Shown one piece after another: positions 2,599 to 12,655 of a stretch of DNA of 64,000 nucleotides. Source of the stretch: an uncultured beta proteobacterium (GTDB lineage Bacteria > Pseudomonadota > Gammaproteobacteria > Burkholderiales > Burkholderiaceae). Made by a program: the position numbers and the translations under genes. The notes beneath the pieces are model-generated. The model was not told where the DNA came from and ran no database searches. It saw only the letters and a list, made by a program, of their open reading frames with translations. Within the stretch, counting starts at the first letter, position 1. Each line of letters starts with the position of its first letter. The DNA is taken from contig CAIQHU010000071.1 of the NCBI GenBank assembly GCA_903871735.1, positions 1-64,000 on the forward strand. Reading direction: 5' to 3'.

Positions 2599-3651
2599 AT
2601 GCCATCAAGGAATTTATTAAAAATCAGCTACTATGCGCTATTTTTTTCTTCTTTAGTGGCCTGCTCTGCTCTGCCATCGTCAAATCAATCGATTCATCTA
2701 AAAGAAATGGGCTCTTTTCATGTCGGTGGAAAAGAAGTGTTGATTTCAGGTAAACCGATTCAGGAAGTCCTTTTTACAGTCGGTGGTGTCCCTGCCAAAG
2801 TTGACCCCAATGGGCTATATCAGGTTGAACAAATGTATGTTCAGTACTTTATCCCCGCACATCAAAAAGGGAAATTACCCCTTCTCATGTGGCACGGCGG
2901 TGGTCTTAGTGGTGTTACTTATGAAACGACACCCGATGGGCGAGAAGGTTGGCTCAATTATTTTATTAAACAAGGCTGGGCTGTCTTTAATAGTGACGCC
3001 GTAGAAAGAGGTCGCTCAGGCTGGGCTATGTATCCTGAAATTACTAAAACAAGCCCAATTTTTTTAACAAAAGAAAATCCTTTTGAGCGCTTTCGGATCG
3101 GTAATGGCCCCGGTAGTTACAACAAAGATCCTGCCAAAATGAAGCCCCTGCCAGGGAACCAATTCCCTTTGGCAGGTTATGATAATTTTACTAAGCAAGT
3201 GGTGCCACGCTGGACCAGTACAGACGAACCTACCATCGCTGCATATATTGAACTCGTAGATAAGGTGTGCCCATGTATTGTGCTTGTTCATTCTCAATCT
3301 GGATCTTTTGGATATCGTGTAGCACAAGCACGGCCAGATAAAGTGAAAGCTCTTATCCTAGTAGAACCAGCAGGTGTTGGAGATGTTAAACAAGTTGCTG
3401 CGTTAAGAAATATCCCCAATGTCAGTATCTATGGTGACTTTATTGAATCAGACTCAAGATGGCCTAATATTCGGGCTAATAACATAAAGTTTCAAGATGC
3501 AATGCGACAAGCCGGTGGTAAACCTGAACTCATTAATCTTCCAGAGCGAGGTATTAAAGGCAATAGCCATATGCTTATGATGGATAAAAATAATCAGGAA
3601 ATTGCTGCCATTATTCAACAGTGGTTAAGTCATAAAGGTTTTGTTCATTAG
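2599..3651 (+). CDS. Alpha/beta hydrolase (esterase) lipoprotein
   Basis: 350 aa; lipobox-like SSLVAC; LLMWHGGGLSGVTYE, VLVHSQSGSFGYR nucleophile elbow. Confidence 0.8.
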   Translation: MPSRNLLKISYYALFFSSLVACSALPSSNQSIHLKEMGSFHVGGKEVLISGKPIQEVLFTVGGVPAKVDPNGLYQVEQMYVQYFIPAHQKGKLPLLMWHGGGLSGVTYETTPDGREGWLNYFIKQGWAVFNSDAVERGRSGWAMYPEITKTSPIFLTKENPFERFRIGNGPGSYNKDPAKMKPLPGNQFPLAGYDNFTKQVVPRWTSTDEPTIAAYIELVDKVCPCIVLVHSQSGSFGYRVAQARPDKVKALILVEPAGVGDVKQVAALRNIPNVSIYGDFIESDSRWPNIRANNIKFQDAMRQAGGKPELINLPERGIKGNSHMLMMDKNNQEIAAIIQQWLSHKGFVH

Positions 3652-3753: not shown

Positions 3754-4998
3754 ATGAATAATGAAATTTTAAAAGGTGCAAAAACTCCAACGCCTATGGC
3801 GCATTATTGCCAAGGTGTACTCCACCACAATACGATCTATGCGGCAGGACAAATAGCCTCAGATTATCAAACTGGTGTCCCATCAGAAGCTAAACAGGCC
3901 GCAGCTTTCCCCTACTATGGATCAAATATTCAAAAGCAAGCCAGATATGTCCTACAAAATCTTCAGTCGGTTTTTGCAAGTGCTGGTAGCGACTTTAAAG
4001 ATGTCGTTAAGTCACAAGTGTTTCTAACAGATTTAAATGATTTCTATTACTTTGATCAAATATGGAAAGAATTTTTTCCTGTACCACCTCCTAGAACTAC
4101 AGTAGAAGTCGGCGCCCTTTTAGTACCTGGCTGTAAAGTGGAAATTGATCTTTGGGGTGTAAAGTCACAGGTGCCTCGGCAAGTCATCATTGGGGCAAAA
4201 ACCCCTACACCGATGGCCCACTATTCTCAAGGTATCCTGATTGAAAATATTCTCTATGCTGCCGGACAAATCGCATCAGACTACCAAACTGGCGTCGCTC
4301 CTGAGGCGATACAAGATCCTGCTTTTCCCTACTATGGGTCAAATATTCAAAAGCAAACTAGGTATATTCTCAATAATATACAAAGCGTTTTTGACTCTGC
4401 CGGCTGTGATTTCAAAGATGTTGTGAAAGCTCAAATCTTTTTAACAGATCTCAACGATTTCTATTATTTCGATCAAGCATGGAAAGACTATTTTCAGCAC
4501 TCTGTGCCAAGAACGATTGTTGAGGTACAAAAATTATTAGTGCCAGGGTGTCGTATCGAAATCGATTTATGGGGCGTTTTACCCAACACACCTAAAAAAG
4601 AAATTCACTTACAAAACAATGAGCAATCATCTTTTTGCCATGGCCTGATTGTTAATGATACCCTTTACGCCTCTGGACAAATCGCGTCAGATCACAAAAC
4701 GCCTCTCATTCAAATCGCTCATCAAGATCCAGCCTTTCCCTTCTATGGCTCTGAAATTCAAAAACAAACGCGCTTTGTGATGAATAATTTTCAAAAACTG
4801 TATCAACAAGGTGGCTTTGATTTGGCCGACACAGTCAAAGCCCAAGTATTCTTATCAGATCTAAATGACTTTTATTATTTTGATCAAATTTGGAAAGAGT
4901 ATTTTCCTTCTCCGCCACCCAGAACAACCCTAGAGGTCGGCAAGTTTTTGGTTCCAGGCTGTAAAGTTCAGGTTGATTTAACAGCTGCAAAAAATTAA
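3754..4998 (+). CDS. Triple tandem RidA/YjgF-family protein (three fused Rid domains)
   Basis: 414 aa; three homologous ~130 aa units each with AGQIASD, FPYYGS(N/E)IQKQ, DLNDFYYFDQ, PRT(T/I)(V/L)EV, LVPGC motifs. Confidence 0.9.
   Translation: MNNEILKGAKTPTPMAHYCQGVLHHNTIYAAGQIASDYQTGVPSEAKQAAAFPYYGSNIQKQARYVLQNLQSVFASAGSDFKDVVKSQVFLTDLNDFYYFDQIWKEFFPVPPPRTTVEVGALLVPGCKVEIDLWGVKSQVPRQVIIGAKTPTPMAHYSQGILIENILYAAGQIASDYQTGVAPEAIQDPAFPYYGSNIQKQTRYILNNIQSVFDSAGCDFKDVVKAQIFLTDLNDFYYFDQAWKDYFQHSVPRTIVEVQKLLVPGCRIEIDLWGVLPNTPKKEIHLQNNEQSSFCHGLIVNDTLYASGQIASDHKTPLIQIAHQDPAFPFYGSEIQKQTRFVMNNFQKLYQQGGFDLADTVKAQVFLSDLNDFYYFDQIWKEYFPSPPPRTTLEVGKFLVPGCKVQVDLTAAKN
3769..4995 (+). repeat. Internal triplication of a ~400-bp RidA-domain unit (approx. 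3769-4170, 4189-4590, 4601-4995)
   Basis: Near-identical DNA blocks, e.g. ccctactatggatcaaatattcaaaagcaa / ccctactatgggtcaaatattcaaaagcaa. Confidence 0.85.
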
Positions 4999-5006
4999 GG
5001 ATTCCC

Positions 5007-5978
5007 GTGAAAGTAGTTATTGCTGACGATTATCAAAATTGTGCTCGAAGTTTAAAGTGCTTCACATACCTCAAGGATCATGACGTTACTCTCTATGTTG
5101 AACCTGCGAAATCAGAAAAAGAACTGATTGAACGTTTTATCCAAGCTGATGTGATCGTCATCGTCCGAGAAAGAATTCGAATTACCCAGGCGATCCTAGA
5201 AGCACTACCCAAGCTTAAACTGATATCTCTAGTTGGCCGTCATAGCAAAATGATTGATTTTGAGGCGTGCACTAAACTGGGTATACCTGTGGCCCATGGT
5301 GTGAGTTCATCCCCTTTAGCGCCTGCGGAATTAACCCTCGCTTTAATTTTTGCGGCAAGAAGAAATGTCGTTCTTGAAGCAAGTCGCATGCAAGCAGGAC
5401 AATTCCCAATTACTTTATCGCACCGTATTCATGGTTCAACATTGGGTATCTTTGGTCTTGGAGTCATTGGAGAAATCGTTGCTAAATCTGCCCAAGCAAT
5501 GGGTATGCAAATTGTAGTCTGGGGTAGAAAAGCCTCTCTAGATAAGGCTAAGTCCCTGGGCTATGGAGTGGCTGATTCAAAAGAATCTTTTTTTTCAAGT
5601 GCAGATGTAATTAGTCTTCATCTTCGATATTCAAAAGAAACACAAGGCATTGTTCAAGAATCGGAATTGGCTCTGATGAAGCCAACTGCGTTAATTGTCA
5701 ATACGGCCCGTGCTGAGCTAATTGCATCCGGCGCCCTTGAGAATGCCTTAAATTTGGGTAGGCCCGGATTTGCTGCTGTTGATGTCTATGAAAATGAGCC
5801 AATTTTGGATGGTAAACACCCCCTACTAAAAATGTCTAACGTAATTTGTATGCCCCATTTGGGATGGGCAGATCATGATACTTTTGAAATGTATTTTGGA
5901 GAAGCTTTTGAACAAGTCCACCTCTTTGCCAATAATTTACCACTGAGACTGGCAAATCCAAACGTACTAAATAAATAG
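5007..5978 (+). CDS. D-2-hydroxyacid dehydrogenase family protein
   Basis: 323 aa; GSTLGIFGLGVIGEIVAKSAQAMGM Rossmann, NTARAELIASGAL, VYENEPI, MPHLGWA. Confidence 0.88.
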   Translation: MKVVIADDYQNCARSLKCFTYLKDHDVTLYVEPAKSEKELIERFIQADVIVIVRERIRITQAILEALPKLKLISLVGRHSKMIDFEACTKLGIPVAHGVSSSPLAPAELTLALIFAARRNVVLEASRMQAGQFPITLSHRIHGSTLGIFGLGVIGEIVAKSAQAMGMQIVVWGRKASLDKAKSLGYGVADSKESFFSSADVISLHLRYSKETQGIVQESELALMKPTALIVNTARAELIASGALENALNLGRPGFAAVDVYENEPILDGKHPLLKMSNVICMPHLGWADHDTFEMYFGEAFEQVHLFANNLPLRLANPNVLNK

Positions 5979-8156: not shown

Positions 8157-9350
8157 TTAAGTTTTTTGATGGGCTTTAATTTGTGAGATTTCTATCTCAC
8201 TCAAATGAAGAAACTCTCTAAAAATAAAATCATTATCTGCGCCAATCTCAGTAGCTCTAAACTGCGTATTATTGACAGTTCTGGCATACTTCGGGAAAAA
8301 ACCCGGAACTGGAAATTGGCCTAGATCAGGATGCTTCACCAGCTCTAAATCTGCTCGCATCGTAAAATATGCCTGCTGAGCAATTGATTGTCCATCCTGA
8401 ATTTGGCATGCAGCAATTTGTAAGGATGCCAACAATTCCAAAGCATCTTCACATCGATAAGTACTAAGCCATGCACAAATTAATTGGTCTATTTCTAAAT
8501 CTGCCATTTTTTGATCAGGCAAAATTCCACATTCCTGCAAAATAATCGTTGTAGCATTTTGATCAATCCGCAGTTGTAGCCATTTTTTATCGCAGGTTTG
8601 AAATGCTGGCAAACGCTCACTAAATGACTTCATACCCCAGCTATAAGGATGATTCGAGCCCGTTCGCTCAAGCTCATCACTAGTATGAAACTGAAACTCC
8701 AACATCTTTAGCAAAGGCTCATAGAGGGCTAAATCTAAATGAATATTTTTTGCCTCAGACCCTTTTGCCAAAAGCACGTTAATTAAAAAGGCTCCATATA
8801 AACCAGCACTGGTATCTGCTAAAGAAAACCCAGTAAATAAAGGTGGTTCAGTAGGTTTACCTGTCAATAGCACAATCCCACTTAAACCTTCTGCAATTTT
8901 TCCAAAGCCAGGCTTTTGTGAATTGATACCATCTTGACCATATCCTGAAATACTCAATACGATGAGTTTCGAATTCATCAAATGCATCTTCTGAACACTC
9001 AAATCTAAACGATCTAAAACCCCGGGTCGATAGTTCTCAATTAATACATCTGCTTTAGCAATTAACTGACAAAACGTCTGATGGCCAATTGTACTTTTCA
9101 AATCTAAACTTATACATTTTTTATTTCTAGAGGCAACTCCCCACCAAATTGAAACACCATCAATCACCGGTCCTGAATTTCTTAAACCATCTCCTTGATT
9201 GGGCTGCTCAATCTTAATCACTAAAGCGCCCAAATCAGCCAAAAGACTTCCTGCAAATGGGCCTGCAATAATTGTGCCCAACTCTAGCACAACTAACCCA
9301 GCTAGTGGCAAGGTACTATATGAGTCAATGGATTTACTTGTTTGGTTCAT
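8157..9350 (-). CDS. CaiB/BaiF family III CoA-transferase
   Basis: 397 aa; LAGLVVLELGTIIAGPFAGSLLADLGALVIKIE, NRKKCISLDLKS-like block, FSLADTSAGLYGA with the Asp expected at the catalytic position. Confidence 0.88.
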   Translation of the reverse strand: MNQTSKSIDSYSTLPLAGLVVLELGTIIAGPFAGSLLADLGALVIKIEQPNQGDGLRNSGPVIDGVSIWWGVASRNKKCISLDLKSTIGHQTFCQLIAKADVLIENYRPGVLDRLDLSVQKMHLMNSKLIVLSISGYGQDGINSQKPGFGKIAEGLSGIVLLTGKPTEPPLFTGFSLADTSAGLYGAFLINVLLAKGSEAKNIHLDLALYEPLLKMLEFQFHTSDELERTGSNHPYSWGMKSFSERLPAFQTCDKKWLQLRIDQNATTIILQECGILPDQKMADLEIDQLICAWLSTYRCEDALELLASLQIAACQIQDGQSIAQQAYFTMRADLELVKHPDLGQFPVPGFFPKYARTVNNTQFRATEIGADNDFIFREFLHLSEIEISQIKAHQKT

Positions 9351-10237
9351 GTTTGATTCGAAAGTAGTTCTATCGAGCGCTCATACATCGCTTGATCAAT
9401 CATCGCATCTCTAAATCGGACAGCCCCTAAGCCTTTTTTAATACCTTCTTCATAAGACTCAATTAACTGTCGATGATAAGTAACCTCCTCCGCCGTTAAA
9501 CGAAAAATTCGGTTTGCAATAGCAACATGCTTGGGATGTATTAGAGCAACTCCCGTAAAACCAATCGATTTAGCCCTTTTGATTAGTTCTTCAATATATT
9601 GCAAATCATTCATATCAGCACCAATAATGCCAGCAATTGGATATGGCGCTCTACCAGCTTTACTCGCTAGAACAGTTTTACCTTCTACATAAAGCTGCTC
9701 TAAACCTTCACGTGTTGCTTCATAACCAACGGCTTTTGCAATGTCTCCCCCGACTGGGCCGCTAACAGCCGTCATTACACTCTGAATCCTCGGACTTGCC
9801 TTAGCAATTTCGAAACTATAATAAATACCTAGGGCAGTTTCTGGTAATGCAATGATATCAATACTAAACTGGGCAATTTGCTGCAAACCTTCCTGATAAC
9901 TTAATGTTTGATCTAAAAGTTGTACCTCTTCAATAGTCTCTATTTTAGGCACTACAATGCCTGTTAATTCTTTGCAAACTAGATGCTTCAAGTCATCAAG
10001 ACCACCCTCGCTCATCGAATTTATTCGCACAAAAACTTTTATCTGATTTGTGGACAATAATTGAATCTGTTCTTTAATCCGAAGCCTAGCTGCAGGTAAT
10101 TGTGATTTTGGTAAAGCATCTTCTAGGTCTAAAATAACAGCATCCGGCTCGTACCTTGAAGCCTTAGAAATAAAGTCATCGCGGTTAGCTGGAATGAATA
10201 AAAGAGATTGAATTGGCCAGCGTATATTTTTTTTCAT
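9347..10237 (-). CDS. HpcH/HpaI-type CoA ester lyase (citrate lyase beta-like)
   Basis: 296 aa; SLLFIPANRDDFISKASRYEPDAVILDLEDALP, VRINSMSEGG, VVPKIET, GFTGVALIHPKHV. Confidence 0.88.
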   Translation of the reverse strand: MKKNIRWPIQSLLFIPANRDDFISKASRYEPDAVILDLEDALPKSQLPAARLRIKEQIQLLSTNQIKVFVRINSMSEGGLDDLKHLVCKELTGIVVPKIETIEEVQLLDQTLSYQEGLQQIAQFSIDIIALPETALGIYYSFEIAKASPRIQSVMTAVSGPVGGDIAKAVGYEATREGLEQLYVEGKTVLASKAGRAPYPIAGIIGADMNDLQYIEELIKRAKSIGFTGVALIHPKHVAIANRIFRLTAEEVTYHRQLIESYEEGIKKGLGAVRFRDAMIDQAMYERSIELLSNQT

Positions 10238-10240
10238 TCG

Positions 10241-11440
10241 TTAAGCCACCTGTCCAATAATACCCTGACTAACTAATTCTTGATATTGCATTTCAGTGAT
10301 TCCTAATTGTGTTAAAAATTCTTTGGTATTTGCTCCTAAGATAGGTGCTACCTCGATCTTCAAATCTTTCTTTTGTAGACTTGGAATACAGGTTACTTCA
10401 CAAAAATTTTGGCCATCTACTGTCTGCCTTGCCTGAATATATCCGCGCTCCCGAATTGCCTGATCCTCTAAGACATTCTTGGTGTTATATATCGGACCAA
10501 CGACAACGTCAGCTTGCTGTGCTAATTCTAATATCTCCGCTCGTGTCTTTGTACTTACCCACTCATTCAATAAATCATAAATTTCGTCCATATTCTCAGC
10601 ACGATTTGCCGGAGTAGCATACCTAGGATCTTCTGCGAGCGATTGACCACCAATCAGCTTTAAAAGTCTTAATGCAACGTCCTGATTAGCCGCAGATATA
10701 GCAATGTATTGACCATCTTTTGTTTTAGGCATATTCGAAATGCCTGCATTCATTGGAAAATTATTACCGTTCCGCGAAACTGGCACACCCTGTAACGAAG
10801 CAATTGGCAATTGCCATTCAATCATTCTTAAAACTGCTTCATGCATCGCCATAGAAATATTTCTAGGTTGAGTTTGATGAATTTTAGTGAAGTTGGTTTC
10901 TGCTATGGCACCCATGGCTGCCATCATACCCGCCAAATATTCAGCAATCGGCACCTCCGCAGATACTGGCGGACCATCTTCCCAGCCAGTCAAATGCATC
11001 ATACCGGTAATGGCAGTTGTAAAAACGGCCGAGCTCGTTCCTTGCCATAAATGGGGTAAATCAACACCTGTTGCATATAAGTCAACCACTAAAGGTTGAT
11101 GATTTAATTGGGCTAATTTTCCTAACCACGGGCAATTAGACCAACCTAATGGACCAATATCTGTAAAAATGATATCTGCGTCTTCCATGATCCGAAGTAG
11201 TATTGCATCACTTTGTGGACTCATAGAATTAATGAGGACTGATTGTTTATTCTTCCCTATGGCATGCCACCACTTTAGCCGTAGTTCATCTGGCATCAGT
11301 TTTCTTATAGGTGAACCAGCACTAGACTCAATCACAACTACCGTCGCCCCAAAGTCAGCTAATAATTTAGTAGCAAAAGCTCCTGCTAAGCTATTACCAA
11401 TGTCTAAAACCGTTAAATGTGATAGTGGTAAATTGGACAT
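10241..11440 (-). CDS. CaiB/BaiF family III CoA-transferase
   Basis: 399 aa; LTVLDIGNSLAGAFATKLLADFGATVVVIE, GNNFPMNAG, DGQYIAISAANQ, DPRYATPANRAEN. Confidence 0.87.
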   Translation of the reverse strand: MSNLPLSHLTVLDIGNSLAGAFATKLLADFGATVVVIESSAGSPIRKLMPDELRLKWWHAIGKNKQSVLINSMSPQSDAILLRIMEDADIIFTDIGPLGWSNCPWLGKLAQLNHQPLVVDLYATGVDLPHLWQGTSSAVFTTAITGMMHLTGWEDGPPVSAEVPIAEYLAGMMAAMGAIAETNFTKIHQTQPRNISMAMHEAVLRMIEWQLPIASLQGVPVSRNGNNFPMNAGISNMPKTKDGQYIAISAANQDVALRLLKLIGGQSLAEDPRYATPANRAENMDEIYDLLNEWVSTKTRAEILELAQQADVVVGPIYNTKNVLEDQAIRERGYIQARQTVDGQNFCEVTCIPSLQKKDLKIEVAPILGANTKEFLTQLGITEMQYQELVSQGIIGQVA

Positions 11441-11521: not shown

Positions 11522-12655
11522 TTAGTATAAATGCTCAATACGGTATTTATTCACCATCTTTTCATTGATATCAACCCCAAGTCCAGGCCCTGTCGGACAA
11601 ATGACACTCCCATTTTCAATCACTATTTTTTGTTCGACAATATCTTCTTGTAAATATTGGCAACTCGGCGTTACTCCCCAGTTAATACTTGGAACTGTAT
11701 ACGCCAGATGAATCAAAGCCGAAGTTCCCAAACTAGATTCGCCAGCCTTAGAGGCTAAGTTCACCTCTAGACCTAACGCATGTGCCACTCTGGCGGCAGT
11801 AGATACTCCTCCAATTCCACCAAATTTGATGGTCTTTAGATTAACTCCAGCTATAGCACCGTGCGCGTGCCAACGAATAATATGGGCAATATCGTGTGCC
11901 GACTCATCTGCACATAAAGGGGCATGCTGTAACTGAGCTAACTGAACTGAGCCATCTAAATCATCGCTAGCTAAAGCTTGCTCAAAAAATAGTAAATTAC
12001 TTTGTGTAACACCTTGCAATATGAGTTTGGCATCTTCTAAACATAATCCAGCATTGGCGTCTGCACTGAGAAAAACAGCCGAGCCATACAGTCGTCTTAA
12101 TTCATTTAAAGTAGCGATCTCTTCTTCAACAGACTTAACTCCAATTTTTAACTTAAAAAAACGAATACCAGCCTGATAATAACGCGCCGCGTCTAATAAA
12201 TCCTCCTGAATCGTAGGATTGGCAAGTAAAGTCATGACCGGAATCTGTCTTCTAATCCGACCACCTAAAAGGTCTGAAACAGAAATATTGCAACATTTTC
12301 CATATAAGTCATACAAAGCAATATTACAGGCTGCCTTTGCCCCTGTGTTACCAGGTATCCTATTTTGGATTTGATCATTCACTATGGCCCAGTCGACTAT
12401 GCTTTGCCCAACCAGCATTTGAGAAAACTGCGTATCAACTAATTGCTTCATCCCTAAAAGGGTCTCACCAGTCATTTTCGGAGCAGCTGATGCCTCTCCC
12501 CAACCAAGCACGCCACTGACAGTTTCTAGTCTGACTAATAAGGAATCCGAGGAACGAATTTCTTGGTTATCACCCATCAAGACGGGCTTGATTAACGGCA
12601 GCGAAACTGGAATAGTTTCTACCCGTTTAATGGTGTGATCCATATTAGATTTCAA
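11522..12655 (-). CDS. Mandelate racemase/muconate lactonizing enzyme family protein (enolase superfamily)
   Basis: 377 aa; FFKLKIGVKS (KxK), LSADANAG, FEQALASDD, LCADESAHD, VNLKTIKFGGIGG. Confidence 0.85.
   Translation of the reverse strand: MKSNMDHTIKRVETIPVSLPLIKPVLMGDNQEIRSSDSLLVRLETVSGVLGWGEASAAPKMTGETLLGMKQLVDTQFSQMLVGQSIVDWAIVNDQIQNRIPGNTGAKAACNIALYDLYGKCCNISVSDLLGGRIRRQIPVMTLLANPTIQEDLLDAARYYQAGIRFFKLKIGVKSVEEEIATLNELRRLYGSAVFLSADANAGLCLEDAKLILQGVTQSNLLFFEQALASDDLDGSVQLAQLQHAPLCADESAHDIAHIIRWHAHGAIAGVNLKTIKFGGIGGVSTAARVAHALGLEVNLASKAGESSLGTSALIHLAYTVPSINWGVTPSCQYLQEDIVEQKIVIENGSVICPTGPGLGVDINEKMVNKYRIEHLY

Follow-up and report, generated by a model that had tools for sequence, protein, structure and literature searches.

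Niehaus et al. (2015) gave the name '3x-RidA' to proteins such as EF_0115 of Enterococcus faecalis, presuming that their units are those of a covalently linked trimer (PMC4433059), and in the literature that we searched the name appears in no other paper and no follow-up study was found. In Arabidopsis RidA (AtRidA) a Lys and the second acidic residue bridge neighbouring subunits, and the essential Arg of the family is Arg105 in Escherichia coli TdcF and R165 in AtRidA (PMC4433059, PMC4960622). Related folds have been built into other assemblies: AmnE acts in a catabolic pathway and uses its Lp2 loop to join two trimers into a hexamer (PMC6742747), and the fold of the chorismatases has been described as having pseudo-threefold symmetry, possibly evolved from a YjgF trimer. 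We consider here a gene at positions 3754-4998 of a 64,000-nucleotide stretch from an uncultured beta proteobacterium (contig CAIQHU010000071.1; the whole stretch is called the window), in which a single open reading frame (ORF) codes for three full tandem units of RidA, a small enzyme of detoxification. The host genome groups with Polynucleobacter, its nearest records being P. kasalickyi and P. rarus. The three-unit architecture and the idea of a covalent trimer are already published as 3x-RidA, of which this gene is a conserved further example; it adds a lineage-specific change in unit 3 and an association with a transporter.

Architecture and probable packing of the three units

Our preferred reading, which we think has a good chance of being right, is that this 3x-RidA is folded as a single-chain pseudo-trimer, with three inter-unit clefts for imine hydrolysis, two of them canonical and one modified. 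The three-unit match with which it begins is far above chance level: Pfam model PF01042 (Ribonuc_L-PSP) matches the protein of 414 amino acids (aa) in three stretches (whole-protein E=1.9e-70; 89.5, 87.3 and 62.6 bits for units 1, 2 and 3, each above the family gathering cut-off of 27.3), and a six-frame scan of the genome places the same domain in the three intervals of Table 1. A first, sequence-only reading of this DNA had described one ORF with three complete RidA/YjgF-type units, and the domain count, the exact limits of the ORF and the motifs that it quoted (PRTTVEV, PRTIVEV and PRTTLEV; KVEIDL, RIEIDL and KVQVDL) all bear it out. The gene is a real, conserved and well-maintained 3x-RidA.

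That the fused units make a one-chain trimer had also been proposed, and this gains from an AlphaFold2 model obtained in a second run, in which distant three-unit relatives and eleven single-unit RidA rows were added to the alignment. The model reaches a predicted local distance difference test (pLDDT) of 87.9 and a predicted template modelling score (pTM) of 0.89, and as this pTM extends over three domains, their relative placement is confident. In a structure search its best matches in the PDB are the chorismatases 5a3k, 5ag3 and 4bps, which are single-chain pseudo-trimers, over about 380 columns with probability 1.00; RidA chains come next, on single units (TMt 0.79-0.89). With the inter-unit pair of Lys and acidic residue retained in every unit, the model suggests that the three units very probably fold into the usual three-part ring of RidA as one chain.

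Several observations weigh against this reading. A first AlphaFold2 run, made with an alignment of 13 close relatives and no single-unit rows, gave a poor model (pLDDT 65.9, pTM 0.59), and it is for this reason that the prediction was repeated with the wider alignment, whose eleven single-unit rows may have nudged the model. The template modelling score (TM-score) between model and chorismatase is just 0.48-0.61, with a root-mean-square deviation of about 5.5 Å; against TIGR00004 (curated cut-off 106.25) the whole protein scores 222.5 bits, but its units taken singly score 85.0, 83.4 and 59.7 bits, each below the cut-off; and no imine-producing enzyme is conserved beside the three-unit gene in the neighbourhoods compared. 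One may also imagine that the RidA units pair across chains into a larger assembly, such as the back-to-back rings of AmnE, instead of closing into a trimer within one chain. We hold this to be improbable in view of the single-chain pTM and the whole-chain match to a pseudo-trimer, even though AmnE demonstrates that RidA rings can dimerise and every unit here has an insertion of about 12 residues, between strand 3 and helix 1, that corresponds to Lp2 of AmnE; two closed pseudo-trimers set back to back would in any case agree with the single-chain pseudo-trimer, not contradict it.

Cleft residues and the third unit

Active-site positions were taken from Bacillus subtilis YabJ and compared in 15 members of the three-unit family. 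Without exception, each of the three units keeps the essential Arg in 15/15 members, and the retention of the PRT(T/I)(V/L)EV Arg throughout the window protein, remarked upon from the start, corresponds to R114, R253 and R390. The Lys and the second acidic residue (the equivalents of K136(At) and E182(At), with Asp here for Glu) are likewise invariant, in all units of 15/15 members. The Tyr and the first Glu are present in every unit of the more distant Burkholderiales relatives (records L011-L015); in the window protein the equivalents of Tyr17 and Glu120 are kept in units 1 and 2 and replaced in unit 3 (F294, Q406), and unit 3 of all 10 full-length Polynucleobacter proteins has Gln for Glu, and Phe or Leu for Tyr.

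We propose a deaminase reaction because the Arg is retained and the chemistry of RidA is established. Three clefts would lie between units 1 and 2, 2 and 3, and 3 and 1 (a pairing that we infer); in each of them the Arg of one unit would hold the carboxylate of a 2-imino or 2-enamino acid, the next unit would complete the pocket with its Tyr loop and its Glu strand, and hydrolysis of the imine by water would yield a 2-keto acid and ammonia. In AmnE one subunit contributes alpha4, beta4 and beta5 to a cleft and the adjoining subunit contributes beta2, beta3, beta6 and the Lp1 loop (PMC6742747); judged by sequence, beta5 bears the Arg, beta6 the Glu and Lp1 the Tyr. Should the AmnE layout hold, both changes of unit 3 would line a single cleft and face the Arg of a different unit, which is why two canonical sites and one modified site are predicted. 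We regard the protein most probably as a deaminase of imines or enamines, its interface sites being two canonical ones and a modified one.

Unit 3 had been called perhaps degenerate. The Glu-to-Gln change is confirmed, and it is fixed within the genus; degeneracy itself is unproven, because the Arg is kept, purifying selection is strong and the Glu is dispensable in other RidA proteins: replacing the equivalent Glu had little effect in Salmonella enterica RidA (PMC4433059), and in Arabidopsis RidA a quarter or more of the activity survived its replacement, against 2.2% for the Arg mutant. In a tree of the units the stem branch of Polynucleobacter unit 3 is long, at 0.59, where those of units 1 and 2 measure about 0.2. 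The median ratios of non-synonymous to synonymous change (dN/dS) within Polynucleobacter are 0.057 for unit 1, 0.030 for unit 2 and 0.055 for unit 3, rough values with synonymous distances above 1; relaxed selection on unit 3 was not seen, its ratio being similar to that of unit 1. Unit 3 thus reads, at the level of its sequence, as altered and maintained.

It has also to be considered that the protein is no longer a deaminase and has become a metabolite sensor, a chaperone or a transporter-linked binding protein. The gene follows a Liv-type ATP-binding cassette (ABC) transporter in its nearest relatives outside Polynucleobacter, unit 3 has diverged at catalytic positions, and a distant three-unit group of the Burkholderiales has lost the Arg in all units; against this stand the invariance of the essential Arg in the three units of 15/15 family members, the Tyr and Glu kept by units 1 and 2, and the strong purifying selection on all units, so that a loss of the deaminase function seems unlikely to us. 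Retaining the deaminase with two canonical sites and one modified, we may add a tentative and rather doubtful extension: fusion would have let unit 3 evolve alone, resulting in an asymmetric RidA with its third site re-purposed for a different substrate or for regulation, from an ancestor whose three like sites would have dealt with a compound brought in by the Liv-type transporter next to it. The family forms a natural series, with relatives made of three like units as against a Polynucleobacter branch in which only unit 3 has changed, and it allows a direct test of what is gained by fusing a homotrimer, since one chain lets the interface sites be altered one at a time.

Age, distribution and surroundings of the gene

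The three-unit gene is present in 12/186 Polynucleobacter genomes (2 of the 12 as fragments at contig ends), among them the isolates P. kasalickyi VK13 and P. rarus MT-CBb6A5, where it lies within long contigs, and the more distant Burkholderiales relatives L011-L015 carry it at 61-73% identity. The sequence-only reading had taken units 1 and 2 to share almost identical DNA blocks and to stem from a recent duplication, and neither view survives comparison: the two units are 66.4% identical in register, with 73% in the best stretch of 300 nucleotides (nt) and a longest exact block of 18 nt. They use the same codon at only 48/98 shared residues, and orthologous units share codons across species at about the same rate (64/117 for unit 1 of the window against unit 1 of P. 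rarus). Synonymous distance between units 1 and 2 of the window gene is saturated, and in the unit tree the Polynucleobacter sequences fall into three clades, one for each of units 1, 2 and 3 (support 100/99, 100/99 and 100/100); because each unit type forms its own clade, the three-unit gene is older than these Polynucleobacter lineages. Collapse or expansion of a single-copy gene during assembly is excluded because independent genomes, the two isolates included, carry the same three-unit structure. A recent local triplication or an assembly artefact, in favour of which one could cite the 70% protein identity of units 1 and 2, can be dismissed on the strength of these independent genomes in and outside Polynucleobacter, the unit-specific clades, the saturated synonymous sites and the codon comparison.

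Some of the records deserve comment. The genes of L002 (CALPOM020000015.1) are about 95-99% identical to those of the window, and its title, 'Thermoflexus hugenholtzii', looks wrong; the title 'Bordetella parapertussis' of L011 (CAMAWC010000030.1), an environmental metagenome-assembled genome, is doubtful. In L013 an in-frame TAG at 3403-3405 falls in unit 3 (PMAHYC*GVL) of an otherwise intact three-unit gene, as the result either of pseudogene formation or of a sequencing error. Another, very divergent three-unit Rid protein is found in Polynucleobacter genome G450 (L034:1408-2685, minus strand); its units 1 and 2 retain the Arg, and its unit 3 lacks it. A separate and distant group of three-unit Rid proteins, at about 23-28% identity, comprises L019, L020, L021, L022 and L051-L055 from Burkholderiales and L090 from a different family of the same class; its catalytic Arg is replaced in each unit, and the 4 members counted show a fixed pattern, with Ser, Thr and Leu or Phe at this position of the first, second and third unit; several members adjoin TctC genes. 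By its residues, this group does not fit an imine-deaminase 3x-RidA.

Besides the three-unit gene, the host genome (G000) gave only weak single-unit Rid matches, and since a sample of about 24 further genomes of Polynucleobacter yielded only one, G492, with a match that passes the TIGR00004 cut-off, archetypal RidA seems mostly absent from Polynucleobacter. No plasmid match to the three-unit gene was found at 1e-20. Carriage by phages was considered and rejected, the matches in phage collections being distant and the Enterococcus record examined looking, from its neighbouring genes, like host chromosome.

In the window the gene is followed by one for a D-2-hydroxyacid dehydrogenase (Table 1), with which it is possibly co-translated, and its other neighbours are TctC-type binding proteins and an alpha/beta hydrolase that has no Pfam match and is named from sequence only. 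These immediate neighbours fit the catabolic cluster in which the gene had been placed, but the arrangement is common only to two near-identical genomes (L002 and L003), beyond which a conserved catabolic operon is ruled out; other Polynucleobacter carry the gene at different places. No named pathway in which RidA, a 2-hydroxyacid dehydrogenase and TctC come together was found for Polynucleobacter in our literature search. Elsewhere in the window, on the minus strand (8157-11440), a CitE/HpcH-type lyase lies between two class III coenzyme A (CoA)-transferases, adjoining a muconate-cycloisomerase-like enzyme (11522-12655) and a TctC; the region 8157-11440 has the look of a cluster for activating dicarboxylates with CoA and cleaving them.

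Outside Polynucleobacter the surroundings are of another kind. The genes livJ-livH-livM-livG-livF stand directly upstream of the three-unit gene in L011, L012, L014 and L015, that is, in 4/4 Burkholderiales relatives of that clade with upstream sequence, and the ABC transporter proteins of these relatives are 70-86% identical to those of L014. L013 has a different upstream region, without livJHMGF, and L091 has a Liv-type binding protein downstream of the last unit. Because livJHMGF is conserved upstream in the relatives, the ancestral partner was probably an amino-acid or amide importer. In the literature searched we found no description of an association between three-unit RidA and a Liv-type transporter, and its conservation beside the ancestral form provides a first lead to the substrate.

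Table 1. Positions of the three-unit gene, its units and key codons, and the gene downstream, in the window.
Feature	Position	Strand	Basis or remark
Three-unit RidA ORF (3x-RidA), 414 aa	3754..4998	+	ORF call, Pfam
Unit 1, aa 1-139; Y18, K86, R114, E130, D132	3754..4170 (Pfam 3781-4152)	+	profile match, residue mapping
Unit 2, aa 140-278; Y157, K225, R253, E269, D271	4171..4587 (Pfam 4198-4569)	+	profile match, residue mapping
Unit 3, aa 279-414; F294 (Tyr elsewhere), K362, R390, Q406 (Glu elsewhere), D408	4588..4995 (Pfam 4630-4989)	+	
R114 codon, unit 1; equivalent of essential Arg105 (E. coli TdcF) / R165 (AtRidA)	4093..4095	+	
R253 codon, unit 2; equivalent essential Arg	4510..4512	+	
R390 codon, unit 3; equivalent essential Arg	4921..4923	+	
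Q406 codon CAG, unit 3; Glu (E130, E269) in units 1 and 2	4969..4971	+	
D-2-hydroxyacid dehydrogenase gene	5007..5978	+	8 nt downstream of three-unit gene; Pfam

Comparison with known systems

A 3x protein of E. faecalis was read at L041:5851-7119 (422 aa; it may be EF_0115 itself). It is about 26% identical to the window protein, carries Gln where the Glu would stand in each of its three units, has its unit 1 Arg replaced by Lys, and differs from the Burkholderiales units in their insertion of about 12 aa before helix 1. Its units group together (100/100), apart from those of the Burkholderiales, so that the fusion probably arose more than once, although homogenisation between units would look similar.

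AmnE, the 2-aminomuconate deaminase (PDB 6izh, PMC6742747), belongs to the RidA subfamily and likewise has a lengthened loop connecting strand 3 with helix 1; it differs as a single-unit protein that forms a homohexamer, its sequence match to the window protein is modest (E=6.1e-10), and no aminophenol or aminomuconate genes were seen beside the window gene. The chorismatases (Hyg5, FkbO; PDB 5a3k, 5ag3, 4bps) are alike in being single-chain and pseudo-threefold with a YjgF-like fold, and they provide the best whole-chain structural match; yet they are 10-11% identical and perform other chemistry, whereas the window protein keeps the catalytic Arg of RidA in each unit, and Pfam and NCBIfam assign it to RidA-type families, with no chorismatase model. 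All the sequence relatives found in the PDB are chains of 115-165 aa, none of them with three units. The single-unit proteins (RidA, YjgF, YabJ, UK114) resemble the window units in Pfam family, fold and essential Arg; they need three chains to make their homotrimer, whereas the window protein brings the three units together in one.
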